Source: a virus
DNA length: 43,749 nt
Virus record (IMG/VR): IMGVR_UViG_3300033156_001401
Location: 1-43,749 of that record
Reading direction: 5' to 3' (one strand)
The position numbers were made by a program, and so were the translations under genes. Positions 7,576-43,749 of the stretch are shown here, in pieces; within the stretch, counting starts at the first letter, position 1; every line of letters starts with the position of its first letter. Below the pieces are notes generated by a model. The model searched no databases. It saw only the letters and a list, made by a program, of their open reading frames with translations, and was not told the DNA's origin.

Positions 7576-9527
7576 TGGGCAAATCCCGTCTTGATCACTG
7601 TCTGCTGACTGTCGCCGATGATCCATTCGACCGAGGTGATCGGCGCGTGAATGGTCGTGCTATCATTGCCTTCTTCGACGACCGTCAGGATCTGGCCGAT
7701 CAGCTCGGACATCGGCCAGAGGCCCTTCAGAACGATTCGCGCCCGGGCGCGCTGCACGTAGTAGCGAGCGAGGGCGCCAGCCATAACCATCATCATCCGC
7801 TGCCCGTCGTCTCGCAGGACGCGCCCGTTGGAGCCGGAGGTCTTCAGCGTCCCGTCGCTGGCAACTCCGACGACGGTATTAGGTGCCAGGAGCCACAGTT
7901 CGGCGTCGGGCACCTCTATATCCATCGTGGAGCCATCGCCGCCGCCGGGCAGCTCGTAGGAGAACATTTGCCGCTGATCCGTCTCAAAGGCCAGCGTCAC
8001 TACGAGCTTGTCATAGTCGTACTTGGGCTGAGTCGTGGTCTTTCGCGCACCGGTCCAGTGACCTTTCGCGAGTAGGTGGTTCGGCTGGGCTTGGAGAAAT
8101 ACTCCCAAGTCGGACCGCAAGGCGCTGACGCTGACGCCGACCTCTTCCGCCAGCACGTAGCGTCCGCTGCCCTCCGGGTCGTACAGCCATGCCGCCGGCG
8201 GCAACAGATCCGGCGTATAGCCAGAGGGGTTCTGATCCGTGGGCGGGTCCGTGCTGTAATCCAGGCCCTCGCGCAATGGGATCCACGATAGGGTTTCGCG
8301 GACCTGGTTTTGGTAGTTGCTGACCGAGCCCCAGTTAATGTTGCCCTCTGCGTCGATCACCGGAGCCGCCGCGCCGCCCTGATGATCCCAGTTCGCCGGA
8401 GCCCCAAAGAGCTGGTAGACGGGCCGGAAGCGATCCTGCTGCCTCACTTTGTCTTGCTTCGCGGCAGAGTCAGTATCGCTGCCGGTGCCGTCTTTGTAAG
8501 CCGTTTCCAGGCTGCTCGTCCATTTGGGGACGAGGCTGCCGTCGTCGGCTCGCAACGTGCAGCACATCACGATTCGCCGACCCAGGACACGGATCCTATC
8601 GTATTGATGATCGATCGTGCGCACGACCTCAGCCCGGACGAGATCAGGATGCTGGCCAGATCGGATGCGCACGGTATTGGGATTGCGCGGTAGGGTCGCG
8701 CCGCCGAAACTCCATTCGTCGCTCGTCAGGGCGTAGATGCTGATCTCGAAGCCGTCCTCAGTCGGTACGATCGTGTAATCCATGCCGAGCCGTACCGGGA
8801 TGAGGCGGCGCAACGCCTCGGCAACCGTTTGGGTCGATCCGAAGTTGATCATGTCTGTCAGGTCTTTGAGCAGATCGGCCTGGCCTCCAATGGTCCAGGT
8901 TGGGCCTCCGGCGGAGCTGCGATCGAGGAATCGCTTGACGATGTATTCCAGGGCGTCATAACGCGTCCATATGTCGCTGCCGCCGTAGAGGTACGTGCCG
9001 TTCGATTTGGCCGCGGACCGATTGCCGATCAACGTGCCCTGAGCGTCGCGCGAATTCATCGGCGGGATCCAGGCGATCGTTTTCTCCTGGCCGCTCTCGA
9101 GCCAATACGATTCGGCAATTCGCGTCTTTCGCAGGATTTGCAGCGGCTCGTAGGCGACCCACGTCTGAATCCCGCTTTCGCTCGAATCTGTGCCGTGAAT
9201 CTCCCTGGACTCGGTGCTGATCTGCCCGACCCAAATCGTCTGATAGCCCTCGGTCCCGAGCACCGAGATTCGCACCCAGTAGCCGAGGAGCTTCCACGAC
9301 TTGCGAATGTAGAAGTCGTCATCTTGCGGGCCCTTGACCGCCCCGTAGCGGCGACGCAATTCACAGACCCCCAAGTCCTCACCCGATGCGGCTGCTACGC
9401 ACCGCACCAACTCGAGCTCTGGTTCGATGCGCCATTCGTCCGACCAGTCGTGCTTGATCTCGATGCGCGGTGGCGCGACCGGAAACGGGATCTCGCTGGA
9501 CTCTGGCCCGATGATCGTTGTGCCCAT
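7572..9527 (-). CDS. Large tail protein, probable baseplate hub-like component
   Basis: 651 aa, no membrane segment. The layout is like tail hub proteins of siphophages: an N-terminal beta-rich part (IEIKHDWSDEWRI, IWVGQISTESREI), a middle part with LEYIVKRFLDRSS and VAEALRRLIPVRLGMDYTIV, and a C-terminal beta part ending with APITSVEWIIGDSQQTVIKT. That ITSVEW...T.I.TGF ending is common in phage hub or gp27/D-type proteins. It lies downstream of tape measure, distal tail and fibre-like genes. The hub role is inferred from order and these weak motifs. Confidence 0.6.
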   Translation of the reverse strand: MGTTIIGPESSEIPFPVAPPRIEIKHDWSDEWRIEPELELVRCVAAASGEDLGVCELRRRYGAVKGPQDDDFYIRKSWKLLGYWVRISVLGTEGYQTIWVGQISTESREIHGTDSSESGIQTWVAYEPLQILRKTRIAESYWLESGQEKTIAWIPPMNSRDAQGTLIGNRSAAKSNGTYLYGGSDIWTRYDALEYIVKRFLDRSSAGGPTWTIGGQADLLKDLTDMINFGSTQTVAEALRRLIPVRLGMDYTIVPTEDGFEISIYALTSDEWSFGGATLPRNPNTVRIRSGQHPDLVRAEVVRTIDHQYDRIRVLGRRIVMCCTLRADDGSLVPKWTSSLETAYKDGTGSDTDSAAKQDKVRQQDRFRPVYQLFGAPANWDHQGGAAAPVIDAEGNINWGSVSNYQNQVRETLSWIPLREGLDYSTDPPTDQNPSGYTPDLLPPAAWLYDPEGSGRYVLAEEVGVSVSALRSDLGVFLQAQPNHLLAKGHWTGARKTTTQPKYDYDKLVVTLAFETDQRQMFSYELPGGGDGSTMDIEVPDAELWLLAPNTVVGVASDGTLKTSGSNGRVLRDDGQRMMMVMAGALARYYVQRARARIVLKGLWPMSELIGQILTVVEEGNDSTTIHAPITSVEWIIGDSQQTVIKTGFAQ

Positions 9528-28483: not shown

Positions 28484-29383
28484 TCAAGTCGCAGCGGCTT
28501 TCGCGCGAAAGCGCCTCGGCAGATCGAACTCCTTTTGCACCGCCTTGACGAATGCCCCCATTGGACTCTTCAGACCCTTTGCGGCCGCTTTCTCGGCAGC
28601 GATTGCCCCGAACCGTTGCACGGCCGAATGTGCCGCCTTGGGGCCATCACGAGCCCAAATTGCCTGCACGAGGTTGCATACGGTTGTAAGATTCGCCGCC
28701 CCCTGTGGTCGGTCCCGCGCGAACATACTCAGCCCGAGATGCTTTGCGATTGCGGCAACCGCCTGCTGTTGGAGGCCTACGAGGTCTCGCCGTTCCGAAG
28801 CCGAGGCCGAAGAATCCGAGGGAGAAAAACCCGAAGCCGAGATGACGTGACCGATGGCTGCCGGCGACTGCGTGCGCTTGCTGGCGTGCGCGCACATGCT
28901 TTCGGTCTCGGTATTGGTCTCGGTATAGGCTTCGGTCTCGGTCTCGGTCTCGGTACTCGAGCATTTGCTAGCATTTGCTGGCGATTTGCGCGCAGATGCG
29001 CGCGCTTTGCTAGCATCTGCTAGTGGGCAATCTTGCGGCATGCTGCAGCCTTCGCACACAAAGCCCTGCTGTTTAATAAGTTGTGACCTTCGACACGTTT
29101 GGTCCGCGTGCTCGTGCCAATCGTGGACGACGAGTCGGTGCAGCGGGCAGGGATCGAGCCAGCCGACATTGGTTAGGGCGGTGATCAAATCACCAGGATC
29201 GCCCTTCCATTCGAGCCACTCGGCGATCTCGTCGTCCGACCACCGGCCGATGTCCCCGCGGCGAGCGTATTGCGCGGTGAAGTGAAGGATGCCCTCGACG
29301 ATTCCGAGCGCCTGCCAGCGTGCGACTCCAAGCCGCCGGCATAGAGCGCGCATCTTGGGATGATCTGGAGTGCCGCGTTTCAT
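28484..29383 (-). CDS. Replisome organizer / replication initiation protein
   Basis: 299 aa. The N-terminal winged-helix domain has the common phage pattern TPDHPKMRALCRRLGVARWQ, GIVEGILHFTAQYARRGDIG, DDEIAEWLEWKGDPGDLITA and RLVVHDWHEHAD. A Cys-bearing segment CEGCSMPQDC follows, then a Ser/Ala/Thr/Glu linker with a TETETETEAYTETNTETE run, and a helical C-terminus (AIWARDGPKAAHSAVQRFGA, MGAFVKAVQKEFDLPRRF) like helicase-loader contact domains. It likely binds the origin and brings the helicase. The linker DNA is made of short repeats that may be the origin itself. GAGGTG precedes the ATG. Confidence 0.72.
   Translation of the reverse strand: MKRGTPDHPKMRALCRRLGVARWQALGIVEGILHFTAQYARRGDIGRWSDDEIAEWLEWKGDPGDLITALTNVGWLDPCPLHRLVVHDWHEHADQTCRRSQLIKQQGFVCEGCSMPQDCPLADASKARASARKSPANASKCSSTETETETEAYTETNTETESMCAHASKRTQSPAAIGHVISASGFSPSDSSASASERRDLVGLQQQAVAAIAKHLGLSMFARDRPQGAANLTTVCNLVQAIWARDGPKAAHSAVQRFGAIAAEKAAAKGLKSPMGAFVKAVQKEFDLPRRFRAKAAAT
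28900..29022. other. Candidate replication origin: tandem repeats inside the initiator gene
   Basis: Two repeat tracts lie side by side within the linker-coding part. First, copies of the hexamer GGTCTC/GGTATT type at about 28902-28956. Second, a run of 10-bp units at 28961-29020: GCATTTGCTA, GCATTTGCTG, GCGATTTGCG, CGCAGATGCG, CGCGCTTTGC, TAGCATCTGC. Phage lambda has its iterons inside gene O in the same relative place. The region encodes a low-complexity linker, so protein constraint is weak. Inference from layout. Confidence 0.5.
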
Positions 29384-29418
29384 GGGTCACCTCTGCGAAT
29401 CAATTTGTGTTCCTCCCG

Positions 29419-29652
29419 GCTGCGCGCGACCTCGGATTGAGAGCGCCGCGCAGGTTTGTACCTCACTTGCTCTTGCTCGTGCCGCCTGCGCAGCGCCCTC
29501 AAAACGGGGTCGCGCGCAGCGCAGGCCGATGTCAGGAAGGATCTCGCGGCCCTGCGCAGCGCCCTCAAAACGGGGTCGCGCGCAGCAACTCGCGATCATC
29601 ATGCGGGACCTTGGCCCCTGCGCAGCGCCCTCAAAACGGGGTCGCGCGCAGC
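29419..29652 (-). CRISPR. Phage-borne mini repeat array with CRISPR geometry: three identical 36-bp repeats plus one inverted degenerate unit
   Basis: Identical 36-bp repeats lie at 29485-29520, 29551-29586 and 29617-29652 (plus strand begins CCTGCGCAGCGCCCTC, then AAAACGGGGTCGCGCGCAGC). Spacers of exactly 30 bp are at 29521-29550 and 29587-29616. A fourth 36-bp unit at 29419-29454 keeps the same 66-bp step, with a third 30-bp spacer (29455-29484), but is inverted: it matches the reverse complement of the repeat at 31 of 36 positions and the direct form at about half. Repeat ends are 6-bp inverted (CTGCGC/GCGCAG). It lies in a 470-bp gap downstream of the Cas12-like gene. No cas1, cas2 or cas6 is present in the window. 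Alternative: iterons of the phage origin. Confidence 0.75.
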
Positions 29653-29853
29653 AGATCGGGCGCAAGCCCCTGGCAACCACTCCCTTCGGTTCCATCCTGC
29701 GCGCAAGAAAACACGAGGGCGCCGCCCGGGGGCGCTCCAGTATTCTGGAATATCCCCGGCGCTTCAGCGCGTTCCGCGGGACTCGGCCTGCAGCACCATC
29801 GGCATTGCCGGTTGCCCGCGCTGGGCTTGGCAGCAGCCCTTTTTCCCTCATGG
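29653..29853 (-). other. Leader-like non-coding stretch between the 212-aa gene and the array
   Basis: 200 bases with no supported gene. On the minus strand it would be the leader of the array. It holds a near-palindrome TATTCTGGAATA (29741-29752) and a G/C hairpin region at about 29719-29736. A short stretch at 29696-29725 shares CCTGCGC and AAAAC with the repeat and could be a decayed unit or a tracrRNA-type piece; the likeness is weak. No convincing promoter was found. Confidence 0.35.
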
Positions 29854-30492
29854 TCATTTTCTCAACAATCGCGTCAAATATTGGGATAGATCCTCGGCTG
29901 ACAAAAAGACTTCCTCGCCGCCTGCACGCACAACCAAGCCGCGCCGCTTCATGTCCACGAATACACCGGAACGCCGCCGCGCCGTTCGGGGCTTGCGGCT
30001 TTCCAGATACGACCTTTGCTCGCCCAGGTCGCGGATGTGATCGGCGGCGAAGACTTGGTGCGCCTCGGCCGGTGTCATCTTCGACGGCGCAACGAGCCGG
30101 TGCGTCGGCCGCCCCGATTCGTCGAACGTCAGCACCTGCAACGGCTCGTCGCTTGCCACCCTGCGCTGCTCATCGAGCGGCAAGCCGGCTAACTTGCGCA
30201 TGATCAGCGACGAACCGTGGTATCGCTGCACGATCTCGGGCAGGACTTGTCCATAGGCGATCTTCTCCAGCCATGCGACCATGCCGATCCGCAGCTCGGA
30301 TAAATCGTAACCGCGCTCCTTGAGCAGACGAACCAGTACGGCTACGCGACATAGGCTCTTGACTGTGACGCCCATTGCATCTTTGAGGGCCGCGACGAGC
30401 TCATCGGTCGTCTTGTCCGCGTACTCCGCGGCAACGTCCTGAAGGAATGAGGGCCAACTATCCTGTTTGATCGCTAACGCTGCTTCTGCCAT
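29854..30492 (-). CDS. Hypothetical protein between the Cas12-like gene and the array
   Basis: 212 aa from the ATG at 30492 with AGGAG 7 bases upstream, which lies inside the end of the Cas12-like gene (35-base overlap). Mostly helical: KTTDELVAALKDAMGVTVKS, LCRVAVLVRLLKERGYDLSE, VAWLEKIAYGQVLPEIVQRY, IMRKLAGLPLDEQRRVASDE, then LQVLTFDESG strands, AHQVFAADHIRDLGEQRSYL and a C-terminal beta part GVFVDMKRRGLVVRAGGEEV. The same kind of text occurs in other phage-like contigs as far as I recall, without known function. Tight coupling suggests it works with the effector, or it is an unrelated phage regulator. Confidence 0.65.
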   Translation of the reverse strand: MAEAALAIKQDSWPSFLQDVAAEYADKTTDELVAALKDAMGVTVKSLCRVAVLVRLLKERGYDLSELRIGMVAWLEKIAYGQVLPEIVQRYHGSSLIMRKLAGLPLDEQRRVASDEPLQVLTFDESGRPTHRLVAPSKMTPAEAHQVFAADHIRDLGEQRSYLESRKPRTARRRSGVFVDMKRRGLVVRAGGEEVFLSAEDLSQYLTRLLRK

Positions 30493-31795
30493 CTGTTTCT
30501 CCTTTTTCCAGCATCGCCTTAAATTGCATTTCCAGGCGGACCAATTCGGCCGCCGCTTTTTGCTCTTGCTTGCGCTTCTGAAGTTCCTCAAAGGTGATCA
30601 TTTCAATCGCTTCCGCGTCCGCCTTGTAACGGATCAGCGCACGGAGGCTGGCATAAGGAAAATGAGGCAAGTAATCCCTCGCGGAGTCGTCATAGACGAT
30701 CCGCGAAACGCCTCGCCTGGCTGCGTATGCCACCAGGCTCGCGGAGGCCTGATGCAAGAAAGTGCTAATTCGCCTCGCATGCTTCTCGCATAGCCGTCCA
30801 CGATGTGCGTCCATGCGGCCTCGCTCGCGTCGCTGCTCCGACTTGCAGTCATCTGAAAGCCTGGCCAATCGGCGGCGGTGGCTGATGATCCACCGGCGCA
30901 CATGGTCGCCGTGCAGCCACCAGCCGTTTCGATCTGCCTGACCAAGTCGAGCCACAAGGAGGCTGCCGGGCGTCGTCCGAACGATCAGGTCACCGTTGCG
31001 AGCCGCATCGGTCGAGGTCTTCTGCAGCCACAGCACGACCTTCGCCATGATGCGATAGTGTTGGCGCTGGCCCCCTCCGGGCTCTCGCAATTCAAGGCCT
31101 GACCGATGATCTCCGCCATTTGCCCTCTGTCTATAGAGGCTGAGCTCCGCGGTGATTGCCTCTCCGTTTAGCACCTTTCGCAGAGCATGCATCTGGCGGC
31201 GAAAATGAGGGCCTTGGCGTAAGCGCAGAAGCCAGCGTTTGCCCCCGCGTCGTAGGGTTACTAATGCGCACAGCGAACCATCGCTATGTTCGGCCAGTCG
31301 CCAATCCTGCCTACGGAGCGGAAACGGAGTCGGATACCGGTAGCTCGGCAGCGATTCGGCCGCCTGCCAGATGACGGCGTAACGTTTTGAGCGGTACTTC
31401 CCGCGGACCGCATGCTCGATTGCACAGATGGATCCAGTCGGCATTTCCGGGAATCGTTGGCATGCCGCTCGGTACAAGCTGACGTTCGGCATGGGCGGAA
31501 GTTTGTCCATATCGGCCCCGCGGGTTACGTCCTGCTTTGCGTACTCCGTGATAAGCCAATTCGACAGATTCGTGGTGTCCGCCCACGCAGCCCGAAGATC
31601 GCTACGCAGATCCTCCCACTCCCCATTGACCGGCCCAGCAATCGGGATTGTGATGGTGCGCAACACCCATCGTTCATTCCAGCAGGATCCGCACCAGGCA
31701 TCTCGGCCGAGCCTATGCCAGCCGCGAGGCAAAATCTCATTGCCTCGGCTGGAACGTCGAGCCGCATGCGTGTTGCCACATACGGAGCACCGCAT
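30458..31795 (-). CDS. Putative compact Cas12/TnpB-superfamily protein with N-terminal zinc ribbon
   Basis: 445 aa from the ATG at 31795 (GGGGAG upstream, 4 bases after the previous stop). Zinc ribbon C3-C6/C35-C38. Residues 55-160 resemble a Cas12-type wedge/REC start: EWEDLRSDLRAAWADTTNLS, NW, AIEHAVRGKYRSKRYAVIW, SLPSYRYPTPFPL. A RuvC-I-like strand LIVRTTPGSLLVARL (270-284) has Thr where Asp is expected; then the long basic helices HRRRLARLSDDCKSEQRRE and KHARRISTFLHQASASLVAY, a RuvC-II-like RIVYDDS (365-371) with Asp not Glu, and FPYASLRALIRYKADAEAIE. It ends in a coiled coil, without the usual C-terminal zinc domain or RuvC-III Asp. So a nuclease-inactive DNA-binding effector is likely. 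Family assignment is by eye; the nearby array supports it. Confidence 0.6.
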   Translation of the reverse strand: MRCSVCGNTHAARRSSRGNEILPRGWHRLGRDAWCGSCWNERWVLRTITIPIAGPVNGEWEDLRSDLRAAWADTTNLSNWLITEYAKQDVTRGADMDKLPPMPNVSLYRAACQRFPEMPTGSICAIEHAVRGKYRSKRYAVIWQAAESLPSYRYPTPFPLRRQDWRLAEHSDGSLCALVTLRRGGKRWLLRLRQGPHFRRQMHALRKVLNGEAITAELSLYRQRANGGDHRSGLELREPGGGQRQHYRIMAKVVLWLQKTSTDAARNGDLIVRTTPGSLLVARLGQADRNGWWLHGDHVRRWIISHRRRLARLSDDCKSEQRRERGRMDAHRGRLCEKHARRISTFLHQASASLVAYAARRGVSRIVYDDSARDYLPHFPYASLRALIRYKADAEAIEMITFEELQKRKQEQKAAAELVRLEMQFKAMLEKGETDGRSSVSDQTG

Positions 31796-31799
31796 TTCG

Positions 31800-32003
31800 T
31801 TACTCTCCCCACATCGGCAGCGGCCTGCCGGCCTCGACGAGCCGGCGGTAGCGCCGGAGCCGCTCCGCCCTGGCCTGGCGATCGTCGCTCGCCTGGTCTC
31901 GGATCGCGTCGATCGCGATGTCGCCATATCTGCCCGTGTACTTTGCGCGTTCTCGGCGCACGCCGAGCTGCGTCTCATGGTCAGTCTTCACCGGATGGAT
32001 CAT
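31800..32003 (-). CDS. Small basic helical protein
   Basis: 67 aa: HETQLGVRRERAKYTGRYGD, IAIDAIRDQASDDRQARAER, LRRYRRLVEAGRPLPMWGE. AGGAGG precedes the ATG. It overlaps the upstream gene by 23 bases and stops 4 bases before the Cas12-like start. Unknown; small basic helical proteins of this size in early phage operons often bind nucleic acid or host enzymes. Confidence 0.6.
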   Translation of the reverse strand: MIHPVKTDHETQLGVRRERAKYTGRYGDIAIDAIRDQASDDRQARAERLRRYRRLVEAGRPLPMWGE

Positions 32004-32494: not shown

Positions 32495-33154
32495 TTATCC
32501 CCTATCCCTTTTACTGCCGGGCTTCGGCCGCTCGCTGCAGCAGCAGCGGGAAAACGCTTGCAACCATTGCCGGTATGACCGCGTTGCCAAGGGACCGGAT
32601 GCGGTCCACCCGGCGGGGAACCCCATCAGCCACTCGATCCACGGCGGGTTCAGGCGGCCATAATATCCGGCGGGTGTTCGTCCCCCTGGCGATAGCCCCA
32701 CTATGACCGGGAGGTCCGGTGCGACCTTTCGACGCCGCTCCAGGTATTCGCGGTTGCGCGTGTATTGCTCCCCATCCGATGCCTTTGGAGTAGGCAAGAA
32801 TCCAGAGCCTCTTACGAATGTGACAGGCTCCAGCAGAGGCCGCAGACAAGCATACCCATTCCGCATCGTACCCGCTTGCGGCCAGCTGGCCGAGTATCGT
32901 TCCAAAGTACCCATGCCGCCTAGAAAGCAACCCTGGAACGTTCTCCAGCGAAACGACCTGCGGTCGAACCAGGCGAATGCATTTGATCGTCTGCGGCCAG
33001 CAGTTCCGCCCGTCTTCGGCGGCTCGCTGTCGGCCCGCCGAGCTGAACGGCTGGCACGGGAACCCAGCCGTAACGATGTCAACCATGCCCGCGTACGCGT
33101 GAGCAGGCCCCCGGTTAAACTCGCCGATGTCCATCTGCCAAACCGGCGCATCAT
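32495..33154 (-). CDS. Out-of-frame ORF overlapping dcm, resembling phage MTase-associated proteins
   Basis: Same strand, shifted frame, open for 219 codons. From about residue 65 it reads like a known phage text: FRWRTFQGCFLGG, SASWPQAGTMRNGYACLRP, GSGFLPTPKASDGEQYTRN, LNPPWIEWLMGFPAGWT. Proteins with LPTPxASDG...LNPxWVEWLMGFPxGWT are annotated in many phages as methyltransferase-like. The last motif is the shifted frame of dcm motif X DNA. So either both frames are used, or the resemblance reflects mis-framed dcm homologues in databases. No ribosome site for the frame was found. Confidence 0.3.
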   Translation of the reverse strand: MMRRFGRWTSASLTGGLLTRTRAWLTSLRLGSRASRSARRADSEPPKTGGTAGRRRSNAFAWFDRRSFRWRTFQGCFLGGMGTLERYSASWPQAGTMRNGYACLRPLLEPVTFVRGSGFLPTPKASDGEQYTRNREYLERRRKVAPDLPVIVGLSPGGRTPAGYYGRLNPPWIEWLMGFPAGWTASGPLATRSYRQWLQAFSRCCCSERPKPGSKRDRG

Positions 33155-33323
33155 CGAGAACCCCGTCCATGATCCGCCGCTCGATCAGCTCGCAACGCCT
33201 CCGGTCGTGATCCACGTATCCGACCGTCCTGACTCTGAGTCCGGCTTGCCGCTCCAGAATTCTGAAACCGAGCTCGAAACCGGCGATGCCGCTGAATAGC
33301 GACAGGTGTAACAACTCAGCCAC
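32511..33323 (-). CDS. dcm: DNA cytosine-5 methyltransferase
   Basis: 270 aa from a GTG at 33323 with AGGA 7 bases upstream; the longer reading to 33395 would lie fully inside the upstream gene. All key C5-MTase motifs are present: I LSLFSGIAGFELGF, IV GFPCQPFS with catalytic Cys90, VI ENV (127-129), VIII RKRLWI, X SLGNAVIPAM. The target recognition part between VIII and X is short (about 60 residues). It probably protects phage DNA from host restriction. A second frame on the same strand is also open here and looks protein-like (see separate entry). Confidence 0.9.
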   Translation of the reverse strand: MAELLHLSLFSGIAGFELGFRILERQAGLRVRTVGYVDHDRRRCELIERRIMDGVLDDAPVWQMDIGEFNRGPAHAYAGMVDIVTAGFPCQPFSSAGRQRAAEDGRNCWPQTIKCIRLVRPQVVSLENVPGLLSRRHGYFGTILGQLAASGYDAEWVCLSAASAGACHIRKRLWILAYSKGIGWGAIHAQPRIPGAASKGRTGPPGHSGAIARGTNTRRILWPPEPAVDRVADGVPRRVDRIRSLGNAVIPAMVASVFPLLLQRAAEARQ

Positions 33324-33864
33324 GATACTTTCCTGACTTTGTTGGCCTCGGATCGGACGACCTCGGATACGTTCGTTCTTCCTGAATCTTGCCATCGCGC
33401 TTGTGGATCACGACCTGTGCCGGCTGATCGCAGCCGCGGGCGAGCCAGCTCGCGAGCGCAACTGCGTCCGATTTGGAGCCGATCGGGGCGATGCAATCTA
33501 GCGTCCGCAAACTTCCTGCGAAGTGCACCGCCCAGTAAGCATGCTTCTTGCCGTCGCTATCCTTGTAGCGATGGTGCTGCACGCGGAATATTAGTCTGGC
33601 TGGCATCGGTCGCTCTCCTTGTTTGTAGATGGCCTTTGCAACCTCGAACGCATGACTCCAAGCACATTGAGGAACTCCTACATGCCTAATCTCTTCCGGT
33701 CCGACAGCTACGCGGTGACAATAGGTGCAGCGACGCACGTCTCGCGGATGTCCGTTTCGTATAGCCACGCCTACGTGTTCAGGCGCGTACGCCCGCAGGA
33801 GTGCCCTAAACTCTCTCGCCAAACGATCGAACCCGATGCGTTCCGGCGTGACATTGGTGCTCAT
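33316..33864 (-). CDS. Hypothetical protein with DUF2188-like end
   Basis: 182 aa. N-half: GFDRLAREFRALLRAYAPEH then RRCTYCHRVAVGPEEIRHVG (a possible half zinc site), helix WSHAFEVAKAIYKQGERPMP. C-half: RLIFRVQHHRYKDSDGKKHA, WAVHFAGSLRTLDCIAPIGS and VVIHKRDGKIQEERTYPRSS, the last being typical of the small DUF2188 domain. GGAGG precedes the ATG, which overlaps the preceding stop as ATGA. Confidence 0.65.
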   Translation of the reverse strand: MSTNVTPERIGFDRLAREFRALLRAYAPEHVGVAIRNGHPRDVRRCTYCHRVAVGPEEIRHVGVPQCAWSHAFEVAKAIYKQGERPMPARLIFRVQHHRYKDSDGKKHAYWAVHFAGSLRTLDCIAPIGSKSDAVALASWLARGCDQPAQVVIHKRDGKIQEERTYPRSSDPRPTKSGKYRG

Positions 33865-34253
33865 TTACTGGCCTCCACAGTTACATTTGCGCAGAACTCA
33901 GCCAGCAGCCGCACGTTCGACAGGATCAGTTCGTTGGCGACTTTGTCGTGCAGCTCGTTTGGCTTCAGGTGCTCGACCATGCCGCGAAGCAGACGGATGC
34001 GCGACACAATGTCGCGTTCCAGGGCGTCCCAATCAGCCGATCGCATAGTACGTATGTCTGTTTGCATGGTCGCCTCGGGCCGCGTTACGAGGCGCTCCAG
34101 GGCTGCGTACAGCCATGCACCGATGGAGGTGTTGGCGATGGCGAAGAGACAGCGGTAACTGGCCAGATTTGCAAACTGTCGATCATCCATATCGCTGGTC
34201 ATCTTGCGGATTTTGTGTATATACGGGTGAACAACGGTCGTCGGCTTATTCAC
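33861..34253 (-). CDS. Hypothetical helical protein
   Basis: 130 aa from GTG with GGAGG upstream, overlapping the Gp37-like gene end by 8 bases. Helices: NLASYRCLFAIANTSIGAWL, YAALERLVTRPEATMQTDIR, DALERDIVSRIRLLRGMVEH, ELILSNVRLLAEFCANVTVE. Not recognised. Confidence 0.6.
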   Translation of the reverse strand: MNKPTTVVHPYIHKIRKMTSDMDDRQFANLASYRCLFAIANTSIGAWLYAALERLVTRPEATMQTDIRTMRSADWDALERDIVSRIRLLRGMVEHLKPNELHDKVANELILSNVRLLAEFCANVTVEASK

Positions 34254-35037
34254 CTGGCACCTCCCGGATCAAGAGGTCTTTGGGTATCGCCTGCTTGCGA
34301 TACATCTGCTTCATGAAGAAGGGCACGCCCGCTTCTCTGCATTGATCCCGCACGCGGCGGAACCAGTCTGGATCTGCCGGTCTGGCGCCCGGGCCGGACT
34401 CGCCGCCGGCGACGACCCAATCAAGGCCTTCCCGTATTTTGATTGGCATAGCTTGACCACGCCCCCCGCGGTTGTAGAACGCCATTTTCCAGCGAGGAAG
34501 ATAGGGCTCAAAATCTACTGGCCCCAGCGCCGGCTCATAACTGACCCAGCGGATTGCCGCGGGAATCTGCAGCAGGATCGGGATGCGTTCGTCGGCGGTC
34601 TGCTGATCCTCGACGCTCACACCGAGCCAGATGTGCTGCAAACAGTTGTTGGCGGCCCTTGCTGCACATCTCCAAGCGAGCCATCGTTGCTGTATTTCCA
34701 ACATCCGATCAGGTCTTTTGGTGAGTACGAGATAGGTGTGCTGTCGCGATTCGACCATTGCGCCAAAAACCTGCTGAATGTAGTAGATTGGCACATCGGG
34801 ATGAAATAAATCGCCCATAAAGCACACGCCGATGCGCCTTGGTTTGCGCCACCGCAAGGGCTGAATCAACCGATCCTCGCGCAGCGTGACCCGAAAGGGA
34901 TCGTCCGCCGAATACCCGCAGCGACCGCGAAGACGGGCTGCCATCCGGCGCGCCCAGCAGTTGCGGCAACCCGCGCTGATGGGGGAGCAGCCGGTGACGG
35001 GGTTCCAGGTCTCGTCGAGGTATTCGATGCGGGTCAT
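34246..35037 (-). CDS. Phage Gp37/Gp68 family protein (DUF5131)
   Basis: 263 aa. Family signature at the N-terminus, EYLDETWNPVTGCSPISAGC then RNCWARRMAARL, with Cys spacing CxxxxxxGCxxCWA; further VCFMGDLFHPDVP, TYLVLTKRPDRM, IWLGVSVEDQQTADERIPIL, WVVAGGESGPGARPADPDWF and GVPFFMKQM. These proteins have a radical-SAM-like barrel and Cys set and are common in phages and conjugative elements; the reaction is not established to my knowledge. GGGAG precedes the ATG. Confidence 0.85.
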   Translation of the reverse strand: MTRIEYLDETWNPVTGCSPISAGCRNCWARRMAARLRGRCGYSADDPFRVTLREDRLIQPLRWRKPRRIGVCFMGDLFHPDVPIYYIQQVFGAMVESRQHTYLVLTKRPDRMLEIQQRWLAWRCAARAANNCLQHIWLGVSVEDQQTADERIPILLQIPAAIRWVSYEPALGPVDFEPYLPRWKMAFYNRGGRGQAMPIKIREGLDWVVAGGESGPGARPADPDWFRRVRDQCREAGVPFFMKQMYRKQAIPKDLLIREVPGE

Positions 35038-35049
35038 GCCGCTGGCTCC

Positions 35050-35928
35050 CTATTCGGTCTGCCTGTTGTTGTCAGACGGCCCGAAGCCCTTGCGGATCGC
35101 CCATTGCTCCAGAGATTCGACCAATCCAATCCTGCCGCCGTGGTCATTGATGAAGCGGCGCACGATCTCCACGATCCGATCTTCGGCTTCAACGCTGAAA
35201 CCATCGACGTTTTCAAGATCCTCCTGACCTGCAGCATAGAAGCGACACAGATCGCCTACAGTGTGGAAACCTGCACGGAAGAGACGCTCGGCGTCTCCCG
35301 GCGCCATCCCTGGAATTCCAGCCAACTTCATCTCGTTCAAGAATCGTCGCAGCTTGTCAGGATCGTTCGGGATCTCTTCGTCGCCCTCGGCGGCGACCGA
35401 ATCGGAGCTCTGAAGTTTGTCTGTGTTCCGCTCCCAAAACGTCTGCAGGGCGTCCTCGATCTTCTCGGCCTTCGCTTGACCGATGCCGGGAATATCAGTC
35501 AGGTGCTGGCCGGATTCGGTATGCGTTGCGAGCTGGCCGATCGTCTCAATGGCGGCCTCGGCCAGCCGCTGCACGATTCCCTGGGGCAAGCCCAGTTCAG
35601 CGATCGGCACGTCGCGCCACCAGTCGGGGTTCGAGCCTGAGTCGTCTTTGGTTTCGTCGGGCTGGTCAAAGAGTGATGGCTCCGGGCTGATGTAGTCGTC
35701 GATCAGGCTGTTGAGTTTGGCTTGCGCCGCGGCCACAGCGGCTCGCGCCTGTTTGTACGCCTCTGCCGCTTGGGCGAGTTCGGCTTCGCGCTCTTGTAGT
35801 TCGAGCCGGGCGACCTTGATGTCGTCGGGCAAGCTCGCGCGAGGTAGATCCTTAAGGACCTCGCGAGACTCTTCGTCGGCCTCAGTATCCAGTTCCACGG
35901 GTTCTTGCAGCGTGTCTGTTTCAGTCAT
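35050..35928 (-). CDS. Coiled-coil and helix-hairpin-helix protein
   Basis: 292 aa, acidic. A coiled coil at about 35-75 (ARLELQEREAELAQAAEAYK) is followed by two HhH-type modules: about 105-165 (LGLPQGIVQRLAEAAIETIG, TDIPGIGQAKAEKIEDALQT) and about 195-255 (IPGMAPGDAERLFRAGFHTV, VDGFSVEAEDRIVEIVRRFI). HhH pairs bind DNA backbone, as in RNA polymerase alpha C-terminal domain and repair proteins. It may be a recombination helper, given nearby RuvC-like and YqaJ genes. Confidence 0.7.
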   Translation of the reverse strand: MTETDTLQEPVELDTEADEESREVLKDLPRASLPDDIKVARLELQEREAELAQAAEAYKQARAAVAAAQAKLNSLIDDYISPEPSLFDQPDETKDDSGSNPDWWRDVPIAELGLPQGIVQRLAEAAIETIGQLATHTESGQHLTDIPGIGQAKAEKIEDALQTFWERNTDKLQSSDSVAAEGDEEIPNDPDKLRRFLNEMKLAGIPGMAPGDAERLFRAGFHTVGDLCRFYAAGQEDLENVDGFSVEAEDRIVEIVRRFINDHGGRIGLVESLEQWAIRKGFGPSDNNRQTE

Positions 35929-36292
35929 GGCTTCGCTCCTTGGCCAAGTGGTAGTTCTGGAACATGAGCATCTGTCGTTCCTTGGTGTTCTTGACTTGGG
36001 CAGGTTGCGGCCGTGGCTCTGGCAATGCTTGAGCGTTCGTCGCCCACACCCACACGTGCCGTTCTGTCGCAGAATCCCAGACTTTCTGAAGCGGCTTCAC
36101 AAGGCCTTGCTGCCGCAACTCACGGACCCGGCCGGTGACCGAATTGATCGGCCAGCCCAGATAGGCCGCGATCTGACGGTTGCTCTTGGGCCCATGCAGT
36201 AATGCCCGCAGAACCGCCGCCCTGGAGGCCGGCAGGCGGTCCAGGATCTTCCGATACGATTCGTTCCGCGTGTCTGCTGCTATTGGGCGCAT
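35921..36292 (-). CDS. Winged-helix DNA-binding protein
   Basis: 123 aa from the ATG at 36292 (GGAG 9 bases upstream, inside the resolvase end); the longer frame to 36454 is only the shadow of that gene. MarR-like helix-turn-helix: ASRAAVLRALLHGPKSNRQI, AAYLGWPINSVTGRVRELRQ, QGLVKPLQKVWDSATERHVW. A likely transcription or replication regulator. It overlaps the next gene by 8 bases. Confidence 0.7.
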   Translation of the reverse strand: MRPIAADTRNESYRKILDRLPASRAAVLRALLHGPKSNRQIAAYLGWPINSVTGRVRELRQQGLVKPLQKVWDSATERHVWVWATNAQALPEPRPQPAQVKNTKERQMLMFQNYHLAKERSHD

Positions 36293-36852
36293 AAGATGCC
36301 GCTCCGTTCCGAGACCATCCGAAAGCGGATCGGGTTGCTCGTGGCCCATAGTCCCATCCCGATGGCATCCGCTTCGTCTTGGTTCAGACCGTTCAGGCCA
36401 AACGTCTGCTCTACAATCAGCCGTGTTGCGTCTTTCGATCTGCCCCCGTTCCACTTACCTGGCGTCACGGTTACGACGCCCAGGTGGTGTCCGTGACATG
36501 CAGCTAGCACGACGCCCACGGCGATCGCGTACTGCAGCTGACTCGTGGCGATACCCTGGACGGCGCCGGGGCGCCGACGTCGGGCGTACATGCCGCCGGC
36601 GGGTTCCTCGATGAGGCAGACAGTCTCGGCTGCTGCGTAGGCGTTGAGCACCTCGGCCACAAACCCTGCTAACCGCCGCGTCCACTGTGCGAGGCTGGTG
36701 TCACTGCGCCGTAGAGGGCAACTGCCGTACCCGATCAGAGTGGGGCCGCAAAACGCCGCTGCGCCAGTCCGCGTTTTGCTCGGGTCGAAGGCGAGCAGAT
36801 CCGCTTTCGCATCGATCAGAACCGTCCAGGGCTTCCGTGCCAAGCGCTGCAT
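36280..36852 (-). CDS. RuvC-like Holliday junction resolvase
   Basis: 190 aa from the ATG at 36852. RuvC/RNase H fold: first acid in LLAFDPSKTRTGAAAF (Asp23), second in VCLIEEPAGG, and a C-terminal NQDEADAIGMGLWA that supplies the last acids. The TPGKWNGGRSKDATRLIVEQ segment is typical of phage crossover resolvases. It cuts branched DNA before packaging. The frame extends upstream to 37041, but that part overlaps a different short frame and is not supported. Confidence 0.78.
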   Translation of the reverse strand: MQRLARKPWTVLIDAKADLLAFDPSKTRTGAAAFCGPTLIGYGSCPLRRSDTSLAQWTRRLAGFVAEVLNAYAAAETVCLIEEPAGGMYARRRRPGAVQGIATSQLQYAIAVGVVLAACHGHHLGVVTVTPGKWNGGRSKDATRLIVEQTFGLNGLNQDEADAIGMGLWATSNPIRFRMVSERSGILCAQ

Positions 36853-36862
36853 CTTTTTCCGC

Positions 36863-37036
36863 TCAGATCCTCTCGAATCGCGGTAGCGTAATCCCAGAGG
36901 CGGCGACCAGCTGCGGCACCGCGCCGCACGACAACAGCAAGAGCAGTCGCCAATCACGACAGGACAGATCCTTCGCCTCGTTCCACTGGCCGCCGCCTCG
37001 GCCCGTAACAGCGTGTACGCGTGCTTTAGATGCCGT
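36863..37036 (-). CDS. Possible 57-aa ORF with non-standard ACG start
   Basis: A frame ending 10 bases before the resolvase reads SKARVHAVTGRGGGQWNEAK, DLSCRDWRLLLLLSCGAVPQ, LVAASGITLPRFERI, which looks like folded protein. A perfect AAAGGAGG lies just upstream, but the codon at the right distance is ACG and no ATG, GTG or TTG is near. A GTG that reads another frame touches the ribosome site. Either a rare start, a point mutation or no gene. Confidence 0.3.
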   Translation of the reverse strand, partial: TASKARVHAVTGRGGGQWNEAKDLSCRDWRLLLLLSCGAVPQLVAASGITLPRFERI

Positions 37037-37077
37037 CGCACCTCCTTTCTGTTAGCGAAGCGGACTCACCGTTGCAC

Positions 37078-37186
37078 TGGCGGCTGCGGGACTTGAACCC
37101 GCTCCCGGTCTGGATGCCTGCCAGCACAGGCCCAGGCGCCCGACCAACCGCACTCGCAGCGCAGAGGTCCCCAAACGCAAGCCGCC
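37078..37186 (-). tRNA. tRNA-like sequence, probably degenerate or with inserted bases
   Basis: Minus strand: 5' GGCGGCT (37186-37180) pairs perfectly with 3' AGCCGCC (37085-37079), followed by A as discriminator. Before it is a perfect T-arm GCGGG TTCAAGT CCCGC. In between, GTGC-loop-GCGC could be a D-arm and CTGGG/TCCAG an anticodon stem, but that loop has 16 bases and the total is 109 bases, too long for a normal tRNA. No sound anticodon can be named. It may be a decayed phage tRNA or a tRNA mimic. The gap 37042-37269 holds no other feature. Confidence 0.35.
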
Positions 37187-37269
37187 GCATTGCCCCGTTT
37201 TGTCGCCACGGCCTCGCCACGGGGCCACAACGAGGCCTACCTTTAGAGGGTTTTCTGTGCGCGGCTGTG

Positions 37270-37473
37270 TCACTCGCAGTGCTCTTGTTCTTCGCATTCT
37301 CGGCACCAATTGCAAAGCCCATCTGACTCCATGCAGTACACGCAGAGGATTGCTCCACACCACCGACAGGGTTGTATGTCATCCCACTGATTCGCATAAA
37401 TCGGCCCGTCGCATTGCTCGCACCACGCAACGGTCGGGGGTTCCAGCCTCGACGGCGTATAGCCGCGTATCAT
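37270..37473 (-). CDS. Small Cys-rich zinc-finger protein
   Basis: 67 aa from the ATG at 37473, which overlaps the upstream stop (TGATG) with GGAG 5 bases before it. Cys pairs: WCEQCDG, PCRWCG, LCVYCMESDG, LCNWCRECEEQEHC. The spacing fits two zinc sites in a RING or treble-clef-like fold. It follows the annealing-protein candidate; may bind DNA or protein. Not recognised further. Confidence 0.65.
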   Translation of the reverse strand: MIRGYTPSRLEPPTVAWCEQCDGPIYANQWDDIQPCRWCGAILCVYCMESDGLCNWCRECEEQEHCE

Positions 37474-38411
37474 CACATCTCCATGTCGAGAACTTGTTGA
37501 TCTACTTCATCTAGCTGTTGCTTGACCGGAACTTCGGGCTGCGCCGACTTTGGTCTCCTTCCCGTCGCGGGCCTGGATTTCTTTCGCCGTGCAGAACGAG
37601 CCTTGAATTTCTGCGCGAGCGCTTCGGCCTTCGACGCGGCCCCGTTGGTCTTGTTGGCATCCGGCTCGGGCTCGGGGAATGCTTCGTCGATAGTCGTAGT
37701 GCCGTCCCGAATCGCGTTGTAAAGCCCGACGAGGACCTCGAGATGCTCTAGGCCAATGTCTTCGACACTCGGCACCTCCAGCTTGGCCAAGAGCCTGTCT
37801 TCAAAGATGCCCATCTTTGCGAAGGCCTCAATGGCCTTCATCCTGCGCTCGGACAGTGTCGAGGCGTCGCCAATGGCAACCCTCCGAGCCGCGTCATAGA
37901 TCGGCTTTACTAAAGCCTTTGGTACGACGCGAAAGATCGCGTTGCGAAGCGCAATTGAGCAGGCCGCATTCTTGGTCATTTCGATCATGTCGCGGCTATA
38001 TCGCCGGCCGTGCTTGTCCACGATCCGGCGGGACACCTCAACGCTGGCGCTGATATTCCTCTCTAAGTCGAAGCAGATGCCCTGTGCCACGACCGTGTGA
38101 GCAGTCTCCTGAACTACCCGAGCAGCGTAGCGCAAGTTACCGTAGGACGCGCCAATGATTTCCGCCAAGCGGACACTCTCGCCGCGAATAACCTTTCCCT
38201 CTCGCGGGAGTGCATAGATGCATGACTTGGCTGTATCCTCGTCGAGCGTTGCCAAGCTCATGGCCTCTTGCTGAAACTTCTTGATGGATCGCGGATAGCG
38301 CTTCGCCGTGGCGATCGCCGTGTCAATCTCGGCTTTGCTGATGACCTCCAGGGCAGAGGCCTCTTCCTGAACCTCAACCAGCTCGTAGCGCACGTCTTCA
38401 CTTTCGCTCAT
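37473..38411 (-). CDS. Probable single-strand annealing protein paired with YqaJ
   Basis: 312 aa. A conserved phage type: KRYPRSIKKFQQEAMSLATL, SCIYALPREGKVIRGESVRL, AEIIGASYGNLRYAARVVQE, FDLERNISASVEVSRRIVDK, MTKNAACSIALRNAIFRVVP, KALVKPIYDAARRVAIG. The C-terminus is a basic linker (KARSARRKKSRPATGRR) and an acidic tip (QQLDEVDQQVLDMEM) like SSB-type tails. It directly follows the YqaJ exonuclease with ATGA overlap, the usual exonuclease/annealase pair. The annealing role is inferred from this pairing. Confidence 0.65.
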   Translation of the reverse strand: MSESEDVRYELVEVQEEASALEVISKAEIDTAIATAKRYPRSIKKFQQEAMSLATLDEDTAKSCIYALPREGKVIRGESVRLAEIIGASYGNLRYAARVVQETAHTVVAQGICFDLERNISASVEVSRRIVDKHGRRYSRDMIEMTKNAACSIALRNAIFRVVPKALVKPIYDAARRVAIGDASTLSERRMKAIEAFAKMGIFEDRLLAKLEVPSVEDIGLEHLEVLVGLYNAIRDGTTTIDEAFPEPEPDANKTNGAASKAEALAQKFKARSARRKKSRPATGRRPKSAQPEVPVKQQLDEVDQQVLDMEM

Positions 38412-39289
38412 GATTCGGTTCCTTTCTTCTTGATCCGCAGAATTCGTATGTCCTTGGCCTCAACTGTGTAGCCCCGACGATGCTCCAGCAGGTATGTGAC
38501 GACTCGCCCGTTCCCGGGATCGCCAGCCTCGGCGTCGCCCATGGCCGCCAGCAGGGCGGCTTGGGCTTCTTCCTTGCGTTTGCGGGCTTCGGTTTCGGCT
38601 GCCCGAGCGGTTTCATAGGCCTCAACTAGGGTCGGATCGATGGGAACCGTTTTGTTGGGCTCGCGGCGGATCCGCTTGAGGATCTCTAGTCGGATTCGCG
38701 CCTGAGGCGGCGGGGTTCGCGTCAGGACGTATTGATGCCAGAATTCCAAGTCCCGATCGACGATCGCTTCGACGAGCTCGTTCTGTCGTTGGATCCGATA
38801 CATCAAATACCCGCGACCGCCGATCAGACAGGGCACCCAGGCGATTCGATATTGCGAGCCCAGCACGGCAAACTGATGGTGCACCTGAACGATTACCCGG
38901 TCCGGCACTTCGTCTGTTCCCGGCTCGCCATATTGGTCATACTCCGGGGATGGGCCCATGATCGCGCACGTTTTCGCTTCAATGATCTCGGGCCTATCCT
39001 TGACGATTGCGTCGAGAGTCGCCCGGAGCACAGGGTTCTCTCGCGAGACCCGGCGCTGATTACGCACGATCTTGTAGCCCAGCTCGGCCGCAGCCCAGGA
39101 CAGGACCGATCGCTCAAGGCGTTGGCCAGCAAGCATCGCCGCAGACGCCGGGCTCTCGTCCATCGGAAAGACCTTGCTGGCCCACACATCCGCCGGCGTT
39201 CGATACGGATCGACCCCGACGATTGCAGGGGCGTCGCTCGCGCCAACTCCGCCCCGTCTCCACTCGCGTTGTCTCTCAGTAAGTGGCAT
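38408..39289 (-). CDS. YqaJ-family viral exonuclease
   Basis: 293 aa from the ATG at 39289 with GGAGG 6 bases upstream. YqaJ features: GGVGASDAPAIVGVDPYRTP, ADVWASKV, MLAGQRLERSVLSWAAAELG, then the PD-(D/E)XK part RATLDAIVKDRPEIIEAKTC and VQVHHQFAVLGSQ. The catalytic acids are Asp in ATLDAI and Glu-x-Lys in IIEAKT. It makes 3' single strands for recombination. A helical C-terminus (TARAAETEARKRKEEAQAAL) is an extra. It overlaps both neighbours by a few bases. Confidence 0.85.
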   Translation of the reverse strand: MPLTERQREWRRGGVGASDAPAIVGVDPYRTPADVWASKVFPMDESPASAAMLAGQRLERSVLSWAAAELGYKIVRNQRRVSRENPVLRATLDAIVKDRPEIIEAKTCAIMGPSPEYDQYGEPGTDEVPDRVIVQVHHQFAVLGSQYRIAWVPCLIGGRGYLMYRIQRQNELVEAIVDRDLEFWHQYVLTRTPPPQARIRLEILKRIRREPNKTVPIDPTLVEAYETARAAETEARKRKEEAQAALLAAMGDAEAGDPGNGRVVTYLLEHRRGYTVEAKDIRILRIKKKGTES

Positions 39290-39611
39290 GTGCGGCCTCC
39301 ACGAGATGTGCGCCTTGCGGGGTAACATCGAGCTTTGATTGGTAAACTGGAACAGTGACGATCGTATGGTCTCGATGCTCGTCGCAGCTCGCCTGGCTGT
39401 GCGCAAACGCGCAGCCGCAGTCCACGCACCAGTGCCAGACGTGATACAGGCCGAGGCTGCCGGGGATCGTGCTGGCGAGGACGGGGCCGAAGCCCATCTC
39501 GCGCAGCGCCAGCTCCAGGGCCCTGCCAGGATCGACTTCGCCAGCCAACATCTCGCGCAGCGCCTTCTTATCCTTGCGCTTCAGCGCGTTTGCTATGTCG
39601 TACCAACCCAT
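39276..39611 (-). CDS. Hypothetical zinc-site protein
   Basis: 111 aa: MGWYDIANALKRKDKKALRE, MLAGEVDPGRALELALREMG, then HVWHWCVDCGCAFAHSQASC with DEHRDH, a Cys/His set for one zinc. GGGAGG precedes the ATG. It overlaps the YqaJ start by 14 bases. Not recognised. Confidence 0.6.
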   Translation of the reverse strand: MGWYDIANALKRKDKKALREMLAGEVDPGRALELALREMGFGPVLASTIPGSLGLYHVWHWCVDCGCAFAHSQASCDEHRDHTIVTVPVYQSKLDVTPQGAHLVEAAHATY

Positions 39612-42315: not shown

Positions 42316-42674
42316 AAGGCACGATTGCCGTCATTTTCGCATCGGTAGGCTTGCTGGCTGGCCAGGCGGTCGCCGCCCGGGGGAACCGCGCGTGTCCCCT
42401 CCGACTGCATCAGGATACGGCTATCATCGTTACGTCCCGCCCAGGCCTCAACCTGGCCCGGGGCAGGCGTCCGAACCTGGCGCGAGCGTGGCGATCCCGC
42501 TATTCCAGGGGCAGCAGACCTGCCCGTCGAAGGACGCGGCGTAAGCCGCGTTGGGACCTGCGCATCGACTACTACGATTCAGCCCGGCGCCGTGCCCGCA
42601 GGCAGTTCACCGTTCCGTTTGGCGCCAGCCGAATCGCTGGCCCGAGACAATACCGGGCATTGCCGGAGCGGTGA
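42312..42674 (+). CDS. Secreted basic protein, possibly degraded
   Basis: 120 aa. Signal peptide MKGTIAVIFASVGLLAGQAV ending AVAA, then a very Arg-rich chain (GRRPNLARAWRSRYSRGSRP, ARRRTRRKPRWDLRID). The ATG overlaps the upstream stop as ATGA and follows an AAGGGGG site. The mature part has unusual Arg-rich composition, so a frameshift after the signal is possible. Unknown role. Confidence 0.5.
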   Translation: MKGTIAVIFASVGLLAGQAVAARGNRACPLRLHQDTAIIVTSRPGLNLARGRRPNLARAWRSRYSRGSRPARRRTRRKPRWDLRIDYYDSARRRARRQFTVPFGASRIAGPRQYRALPER

Positions 42675-42675
42675 G

Positions 42676-43749
42676 ATGGCCCACGTCTATAGGCGCGGAC
42701 GCTATTGGTGGGCCAAGATCTACGTGAATGGCAAGCCGCTGTATAGATCCCTGCGGCTCCGCGCGGATCAGGTCCGCAAACGTGACGCCGAGGCGGCCGG
42801 CCGCGAGCTCGAGCGCAGGTTGCGGGCGGGCCGAGAACCCGTCTCGCCGACGCTGGATTGGATCAGCGCCGCCCAGCAGTACCTCGAGGCCTATCGCGTC
42901 CGCGATCGCCACAGGCCGCAAACTCACGAGACCCGGCGCTGTAAAATCGAGATTTTCTGCCGGCACGTCGGTGGCAAAAACCCAATCCCACCGGAGGCCT
43001 CCGCGGCTCGTGAGATCGTGGCTGACTATCTCCGCTCGAGGGCCCGCCGCTGGTCCGCGGCGACCGTGCGTGCCGATCAGCGATACCTCCATCACTGGTT
43101 CGGCTGGCTGATCCGCGAACAGTTGGCACCCTGGCCGGAGAATCCAGCGGATCGGCGACTCGTGGATTTGCCGGAATCTGAGCGCCATACACCAGAGGTA
43201 CTCAGCCCGGACGAGGACGCAGCCCTCGCCAAGGCTCTCCGCGGCAGTCGCCTCTGGCGGCTCTACTGCCTGATGCGCTGGTGCGGCCTGCGCACGGGCG
43301 AGGCTCTGGCCCTGGAATGGCGAGACGTCGATCTCGCCCGCAGCCTGCTGCGGATCCGCGAGACCAAGACGCACAGGGATCGCCAGATCCCCATCCCGGA
43401 TGGGCTCCGTCGCGAGATGCAATGCTGGTCGCGAGGCAGTCGCTTCGTGGCCCCGTCGCCGACCGGCAAACGCTGGTGCCGGCGGAACGCCTTGCGAGGC
43501 TGGGTACAGACCATACAGGAGGCTAAGCTCCCCCAATCATGCCAGCGGCCCTACGTATTGCGTCGCACATGCATCAGTCGAGCGCTTGAGGCAGGCCTAT
43601 CGCCGGCCTTAGCCGCCAAGCTCTTTGGCCACTCAATCGAAACCATGATGCGGTATTACGCCAACGTAGGGATTGAGGATGCGGCCAAGTATCTGTCCGG
43701 CCCGAAAAAGGTTGGCGCCGACGGTGACACGCGTTCGGAGGCCTGTTGA
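42676..43749 (+). CDS. int: Tyrosine-type integrase
   Basis: 357 aa from the ATG at 42676 (GGAG 7 bases upstream), ending at the last base of the window. N-terminal arm-binding part (HVYRRGRYWWAKIYVNGKPL), core-binding helices (about 60-150), catalytic domain with Arg206 in GLRTGEALALEW, Lys231 in TKTHRDRQIPI, Arg296 in YVLRRT, His319 in LFGHS and Tyr328 in MMRYY. The usual His of the HxxR box is Tyr293 here. It would recombine attP with the tRNA-Arg gene; attR must lie just to the right. Confidence 0.88.
   Translation: MAHVYRRGRYWWAKIYVNGKPLYRSLRLRADQVRKRDAEAAGRELERRLRAGREPVSPTLDWISAAQQYLEAYRVRDRHRPQTHETRRCKIEIFCRHVGGKNPIPPEASAAREIVADYLRSRARRWSAATVRADQRYLHHWFGWLIREQLAPWPENPADRRLVDLPESERHTPEVLSPDEDAALAKALRGSRLWRLYCLMRWCGLRTGEALALEWRDVDLARSLLRIRETKTHRDRQIPIPDGLRREMQCWSRGSRFVAPSPTGKRWCRRNALRGWVQTIQEAKLPQSCQRPYVLRRTCISRALEAGLSPALAAKLFGHSIETMMRYYANVGIEDAAKYLSGPKKVGADGDTRSEAC

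Follow-up and report, generated by a model that had tools for sequence, protein, structure and literature searches.

In described type V-F loci, the tracrRNA lies between the nuclease gene and the repeats (PMC7229846). TldR is a phage-encoded, nuclease-dead TnpB repressor (PMC13418256), and Cas12m blocks transcription without cutting (PMC11656645, PMC10442227). The viral CRISPR mini-arrays described carry the repeats of the host, and sequestering of host crRNA has been proposed for a phage-encoded, RuvC-inactivated Cas9 (PMC11656645). Here we compare with these systems a repeat-spacer locus on a virus contig, IMG/VR record IMGVR_UViG_3300033156_001401, of which the whole 43,749-nt stretch analysed is called the window below.

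Geometry of the array and of its inverted unit

The array comprises the following elements, given in the order of a leftward transcript:

29617..29652, minus strand: repeat 1, with a predicted 22-bp pairing to the anti-repeat upstream
29587..29616, minus strand: spacer 1, with a weak seed match to the phage's own positions 9320-9339
29551..29586, minus strand: repeat 2
29521..29550, minus strand: spacer 2
29485..29520, minus strand: repeat 3, with a predicted 33-bp pairing to the inverted unit
29455..29484, minus strand: spacer 3, 30 nt, the loop of the predicted hairpin of repeat 3 and the inverted unit
29419..29454, plus strand: inverted unit, interpreted as a decayed terminal repeat; it reads as a crRNA-sense repeat on the plus strand, reverse-complemented relative to the other units

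The three copies of the 36-nt repeat are free of mismatches and spaced 66 nt apart. The fourth unit lies 30 nt from the nearest of them (repeat 3), in exact 36/30 phase, and matches the reverse complement of the repeat at 31 of 36 positions (five differences) and the repeat in direct orientation at 18, which bears out the first-pass annotation of an inverted unit in 66-bp phase. That about half of the unit matches directly follows from the palindromic ends of the repeat, which itself agrees with its own reverse complement at 18/36 positions and has palindromic stem ends CTGCGC/GCGCAG. One period further left (29353-29388), where both direct and inverted orientations were checked, there is no additional unit (13/36 and 11/36). 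A chance origin of the inverted unit was rejected: elsewhere in the contig the best match to the repeat in either orientation is 24/36, and the maximum over 60 first-order Markov simulations of the contig was 26/36, placing the observed 31/36 at 7.8 s.d. above the mean.

A 156-aa open reading frame (29387-29857, leftward frame) is open across the whole array, staying so because 66 nt correspond to 22 codons, and is probably a by-product of high GC content. A protein-coding 22-residue repeat in this frame was considered as the identity of the array and rejected.

An effector gene related to Cas12f and its neighbours

Three genes frame the array in the leftward direction:

30461..31978, minus strand: P0001, Cas12f homologue, predicted to be nuclease-dead; 31795 is the likely start, giving 445 aa
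29854..30492, minus strand: P0002, protein of about 212 aa starting at the ATG of MAEAALAIK; overlaps the end of the effector gene; phrog_28375 (1.3e-7)
28484..29383, minus strand: P0004, replication-initiation-like gene; phrog_9474 (1e-12); ribosome-binding site GAGGTGA, ATG at 29383

P0001 matches the PADLOC models Cas12f (E 1.1e-13) and Cas12u3 (2.5e-12), and a profile built from P0001 and its relatives ranks Cas12f structures first. AlphaFold modelled the protein poorly from the single sequence (pLDDT 42) and with low confidence from eight alignment rows (48.6); a Foldseek search with the eight-row model again placed Cas12f structures first, at TM-scores of about 0.2, which we count as weak support for Cas12f because the alignment rows used for the model were themselves Cas12f. 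Alignment with chromosomal Cas12f proteins shows that P0001 has lost the RuvC-I G-V-D motif with its Asp, carries Asp in place of the RuvC-II Glu, and terminates ahead of both the zinc finger and the ADYNAARN motif of RuvC-III, which are absent. To judge from these residues, P0001 is probably a Cas12f that no longer cuts. The locus has two marks of type V-F, a Cas12f-homologous effector and a direct-repeat array beside it (with P0002 in between), and we label it 'V-F-derived, nuclease-dead' rather than active V-F because neither the RuvC triad nor the zinc-finger (TNB) domain is intact. Two further features of P0001 were observed, an N-terminal CxxC...CxxC motif (MRCSVCGN...WCGSC), in lieu of the zinc finger missing from the C-terminus, and a long helix that follows RuvC-II at the C-terminal end.

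P0002, which sits between the effector and the probable tracrRNA, is absent from the chromosomal cas12f loci and may be a partner of the inactive effector. P0004, across the array from it, begins 36 nt downstream of the inverted unit; inside this gene, short CTCGGT-type tandem repeats (28901-28955) encode a Thr-Glu-rich linker (TETETETEAYTETNTETES). Upstream of the effector, 32511-39406 holds a leftward early module with a DNA methyltransferase, a RuvC-like Holliday junction resolvase and a RecE-like exonuclease (PHROGs). Since the bacterial-genome relatives of the phage terminase are mostly from planctomycetes and an integrase gene is present at 42592-43749 (PF00589), the contig probably belongs to a temperate phage of a planctomycete.

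Chromosomal relatives and the probable position of the tracrRNA

For comparison, planctomycete genomes (phylum and class) were searched with PADLOC models, and nine of the chromosomal cas12f loci that this gave were read (L067, L068, L069 and L081-L086). In seven of the nine, 36-nt repeats with a period of about 66 nt (single periods of 65 or 67) adjoin cas12f with the orientation that they have in the window, and the CCTG... start of the window repeat is common to the repeats of L069, L083, L084 and L085. From this shared layout we infer that the array in the window is of V-F type and would be read leftward, like the effector gene. Two of the nine loci have peculiarities of their own: L081 (1-644) has by its cas12f an array with a 61-nt period and a type I-E-like repeat (GTCGTTCCCACGCGTGAGGGGATGGGTCG), unlike the other cas12f loci, and in L068 (8245-9505) cas12f is split by a frameshift into two overlapping frames, with array and anti-repeat intact.

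An anti-repeat on the effector side, 14-39 nt from the array, is clear in L068 and L082 and weaker in L067. The four loci L069, L083, L084 and L085 have on that side a conserved scaffold (model R1; L069:1010-1101, L083:4019-4110, L085:3920-4012, L084:5317-5410) and no clear anti-repeat by these methods. This scaffold, a conserved tracrRNA feature of planctomycete Cas12f loci, shares sequence with the 3' end of cas12f, as inspection by eye bore out in L069.

In the window, the corresponding interval contains three candidate elements:

29696..29732, minus strand: probable anti-repeat of the tracrRNA, situated between effector and array and made up of two blocks that complement the repeat RNA; first rank in the duplex scan, array and inverted unit aside
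29733..29869, minus strand: probable 5' part of the tracrRNA, assigned from the layout of the relatives; the upper limit is set by the promoter-like site
29877..29904, minus strand: leftward promoter-like site TTGTCA-16-AATATT just upstream of tracrRNA and array; a consensus match alone, one found against 0.2 expected

When the contig was scanned in full, on both strands, for duplexes with the repeat RNA, 29691-29735 (minus strand) came out top (-48.8 kcal/mol) once the array and the inverted unit were set aside, and the anti-repeat within it (29696-29732) is predicted to fold in cis with repeat 1 over 22 bp. The scaffold of the relatives was not recognised in the window (model R1, best 7.6 bits, not significant), and for that reason we hold the assignment of a tracrRNA anti-repeat to this site, between effector and array, to be probable rather than proven.

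These results bear on the suggestion of the first-pass annotation that the inverted unit itself might be a tracrRNA-like anti-repeat, or, as one may extend it, a second one. The unit is indeed complementary to the repeat at 33 of 36 positions and, at -71.9 kcal/mol, is the strongest complement of the repeat RNA after the repeats' own antisense strand. However, it stands at the leader-distal end, the wrong side of the array by the layout of known V-F loci and of the relatives, and the best partner apart from array and unit (29691-29735) already occupies the V-F tracrRNA position on the effector side, so that the unit is not needed in this role. In V-F guides the scaffold lies 5' of the anti-repeat, and 5' of the unit that scaffold would have to be the array itself. 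We therefore regard a tracrRNA role for the unit as improbable.

A similarly low probability attaches to the unit being a repeat that acts in reverse orientation, such that spacer 3 lies between inward-facing repeats and guides come from both strands. The plus strand does read a crRNA-sense repeat followed directly by spacer 3, three of the five changes are located within the internal loop of the tracr:repeat duplex, one change improves a pair, and the predicted duplex with the tracr anti-repeat (-44.1 kcal/mol) compares with -48.8 for the true repeat. Yet the observed changes do no better than random substitutions (P 0.19), and nothing points to the rightward transcript that the arrangement requires.

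The inverted unit as a probable terminal repeat

Five of the seven related arrays carry, in the interval from -66 to -30 relative to the last perfect repeat, a decayed repeat in direct orientation, and none of 200 shuffles scored as well. Because a decayed direct repeat thus occurs in most relatives at exactly the in-phase position of the inverted unit, the 'record of an inversion' that the first-pass annotation had listed as one of three readings is the best supported of them. Measured against an ordinary decayed leader-distal terminal repeat, the unit is in phase, mutated and leader-distal, and its orientation is not that of the other repeats; we accordingly call it an inverted variant.

We thus favour, as the likelier account overall though with clear room for others, that the array supplies the guides of a nuclease-dead type V-F (Cas12f) system carried by the phage and that the fourth unit is its decaying terminal repeat, inverted in place. 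Read leftward, the order would be tracrRNA, repeat 1, spacer 1, repeat 2, spacer 2, repeat 3 and spacer 3, and the fourth unit would be the leader-distal terminal repeat, commonly decayed in such arrays, which was presumably inverted in place and then acquired five substitutions. The dead effector would probably bind guide-matched DNA and block transcription, in the manner of Cas12m and TldR proteins. A flip of the full unit leaves five differences and a flip through the palindromic arms, with the outer bases unflipped, leaves seven, so a simple arm-mediated inversion fits less well. The inversion that we infer is without parallel, in that none of the seven relatives shows an inverted terminal repeat; no description of one was found in the literature searched for it, an absence that proves little. 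Against this account stand the R1 scaffold, which is unrecognised in the window, and the four of seven relatives that lack a clear anti-repeat by these methods.

The inversion could also be an artefact of assembly or amplification (an inverted chimera), given that the locus is known from a single metagenomic virus contig and no second copy turned up in the viral, phage, plasmid and genome collections searched. A chimera, however, would duplicate the repeat exactly; the five differences argue against one, and the flanks of the unit are not copies of repeat-spacer sequence. We consider an artefact most improbable.

A predicted hairpin of the inverted unit with repeat 3

The minimum-energy fold of a leftward transcript joins the unit to repeat 3 by 33 bp (33 of 36 positions) around a 30-nt loop, so RNA folding upholds the hairpin with the neighbouring repeat, of about 33/36 pairs around a 30-base loop, that had been proposed from the letters. 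This hairpin contributes about 50 kcal/mol to the predicted fold; repeat 3, which self-folds when the unit is left out, is wholly taken up when it is present. Under the favoured account of an inverted terminal repeat, a likely consequence would be that the 33-bp hairpin around spacer 3 holds repeat 3 away from the tracrRNA or exposes the array transcript to RNase III cleavage at its 3' end. On the folding model, the unit should matter mechanically if transcribed, by capturing repeat 3.

The five substitutions give no sign of selection. Two of them retain pairing as G-U, but random sets of five substitutions equal or beat the unit in 11% of cases for its self-hairpin, in 18% for pairing with repeat 3 and in 19% for pairing with the tracr anti-repeat. 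Conservation of any pairing is thus not significant (P 0.11, 0.18 and 0.19), as expected of a decaying remnant; with so few changes the comparison has little power, and the hairpin may yet be under selection. No T-run or terminator-like site follows the unit, the sequence there being CGGGAGGAACACAAATTG. An intrinsic terminator, which takes a GC hairpin with a T-run after it on the transcribed strand, was rejected as the identity of the unit. Of the 'processing or terminating hairpin' of the first-pass annotation, then, the hairpin is strongly predicted, whereas termination falls for want of a T-run and, with no significant conservation of pairing either, the function of the hairpin is unproven.

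The same data weigh on the idea that the unit is a functional cis element, either an RNase III site or insulator parting the array transcript from the replication-gene mRNA, or an off-switch for the third guide. The strength of the hairpin and its complete absorption of repeat 3, the start of the replication-initiation-like gene 36 nt downstream and the two G-U pairs speak for it; pairing retained no better than chance (P 0.18), the absence of such an element among the relatives and the lack of a T-run speak against it, and we consider it unlikely. Somewhat more doubtful still is the stricter claim that the inverted repeat has been kept on purpose, as an in-cis anti-repeat for repeat 3 by which the third guide is silenced or released by processing, or by which the transcript is cut from the replication-gene mRNA.

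Searches for related phage loci and spacer targets

Peptide-pattern scans of viral and genome contigs found no close relatives of the effector, and a scan using aligned chromosomal Cas12f sequences returned three viral matches, all distant. A degenerate DNA pattern for the RuvC-II region yielded three matches, none related, and scanning the viral contigs for an identical repeat core brought up nothing. The locus DNA and P0001 had chance-level or TnpB-like matches only among phage and plasmid records. The effector was found in none of 28 phages related by terminase, many of which are fragments, and searches with P0004 and P0002 in related phages revealed no synteny.

Spacer targets sought in phages and plasmids gave chance-level matches only. 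The first 20 nt of spacer 1 match the phage's own 651-aa open reading frame at 9320-9339 in 17 of 20 positions, a borderline match that we do not claim as a target because about 3% of random 20-mers of the contig reach 17/20.

Comparison with known systems

A single CRISPR repeat has apparently been flipped here without loss of phase, turning an end repeat into a strong hairpin partner of its neighbour. Of more interest than the unit is the locus itself, a natural, apparently cutting-dead Cas12f with a short guide array on what is probably a temperate planctomycete phage. By analogy with known systems it may silence genes of the host or of rival phages; alternatively, it might sequester host crRNA, as proposed for the phage RuvC-inactivated Cas9.

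With type V-F, including the planctomycete (Planctomycetota) loci, the window shares a Cas12f-family effector, 36-nt repeats with spacers of about 30 nt beside it, and a probable tracrRNA in between. It differs in its setting on a temperate phage, in an effector without the RuvC-I Asp, the zinc finger and RuvC-III, in the extra P0002 between effector and tracrRNA, and in a terminal repeat that is inverted rather than direct. A natural nuclease-deactivated Cas12f (PDB 9n9c, 365 aa) stops, like P0001, just after the RuvC-II region; its sequence similarity to P0001 alone is weak (E 0.06). Cas12m (type V-M) is likewise a compact type V effector with an impaired RuvC, but profile searches place the window effector with Cas12f, and no match to the architecture of Cas12m was obtained. 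The viral mini-arrays and the phage RuvC-inactivated Cas9 offer, respectively, short phage-borne arrays and a dead effector with its own tracrRNA; the repeats of the mini-arrays are those of the host, whereas the array in the window adjoins its own effector. TldR resembles the locus as a nuclease-dead member of the TnpB/Cas12 superfamily on temperate phages, with presumed RNA-guided repression, and differs in using a single guide RNA from its own gene where the window has a repeat-spacer array with a tracrRNA. If silencing of host or rival-phage genes is indeed what the locus does, it would be an array-bearing Cas12f counterpart of the TnpB-derived TldR repressors.
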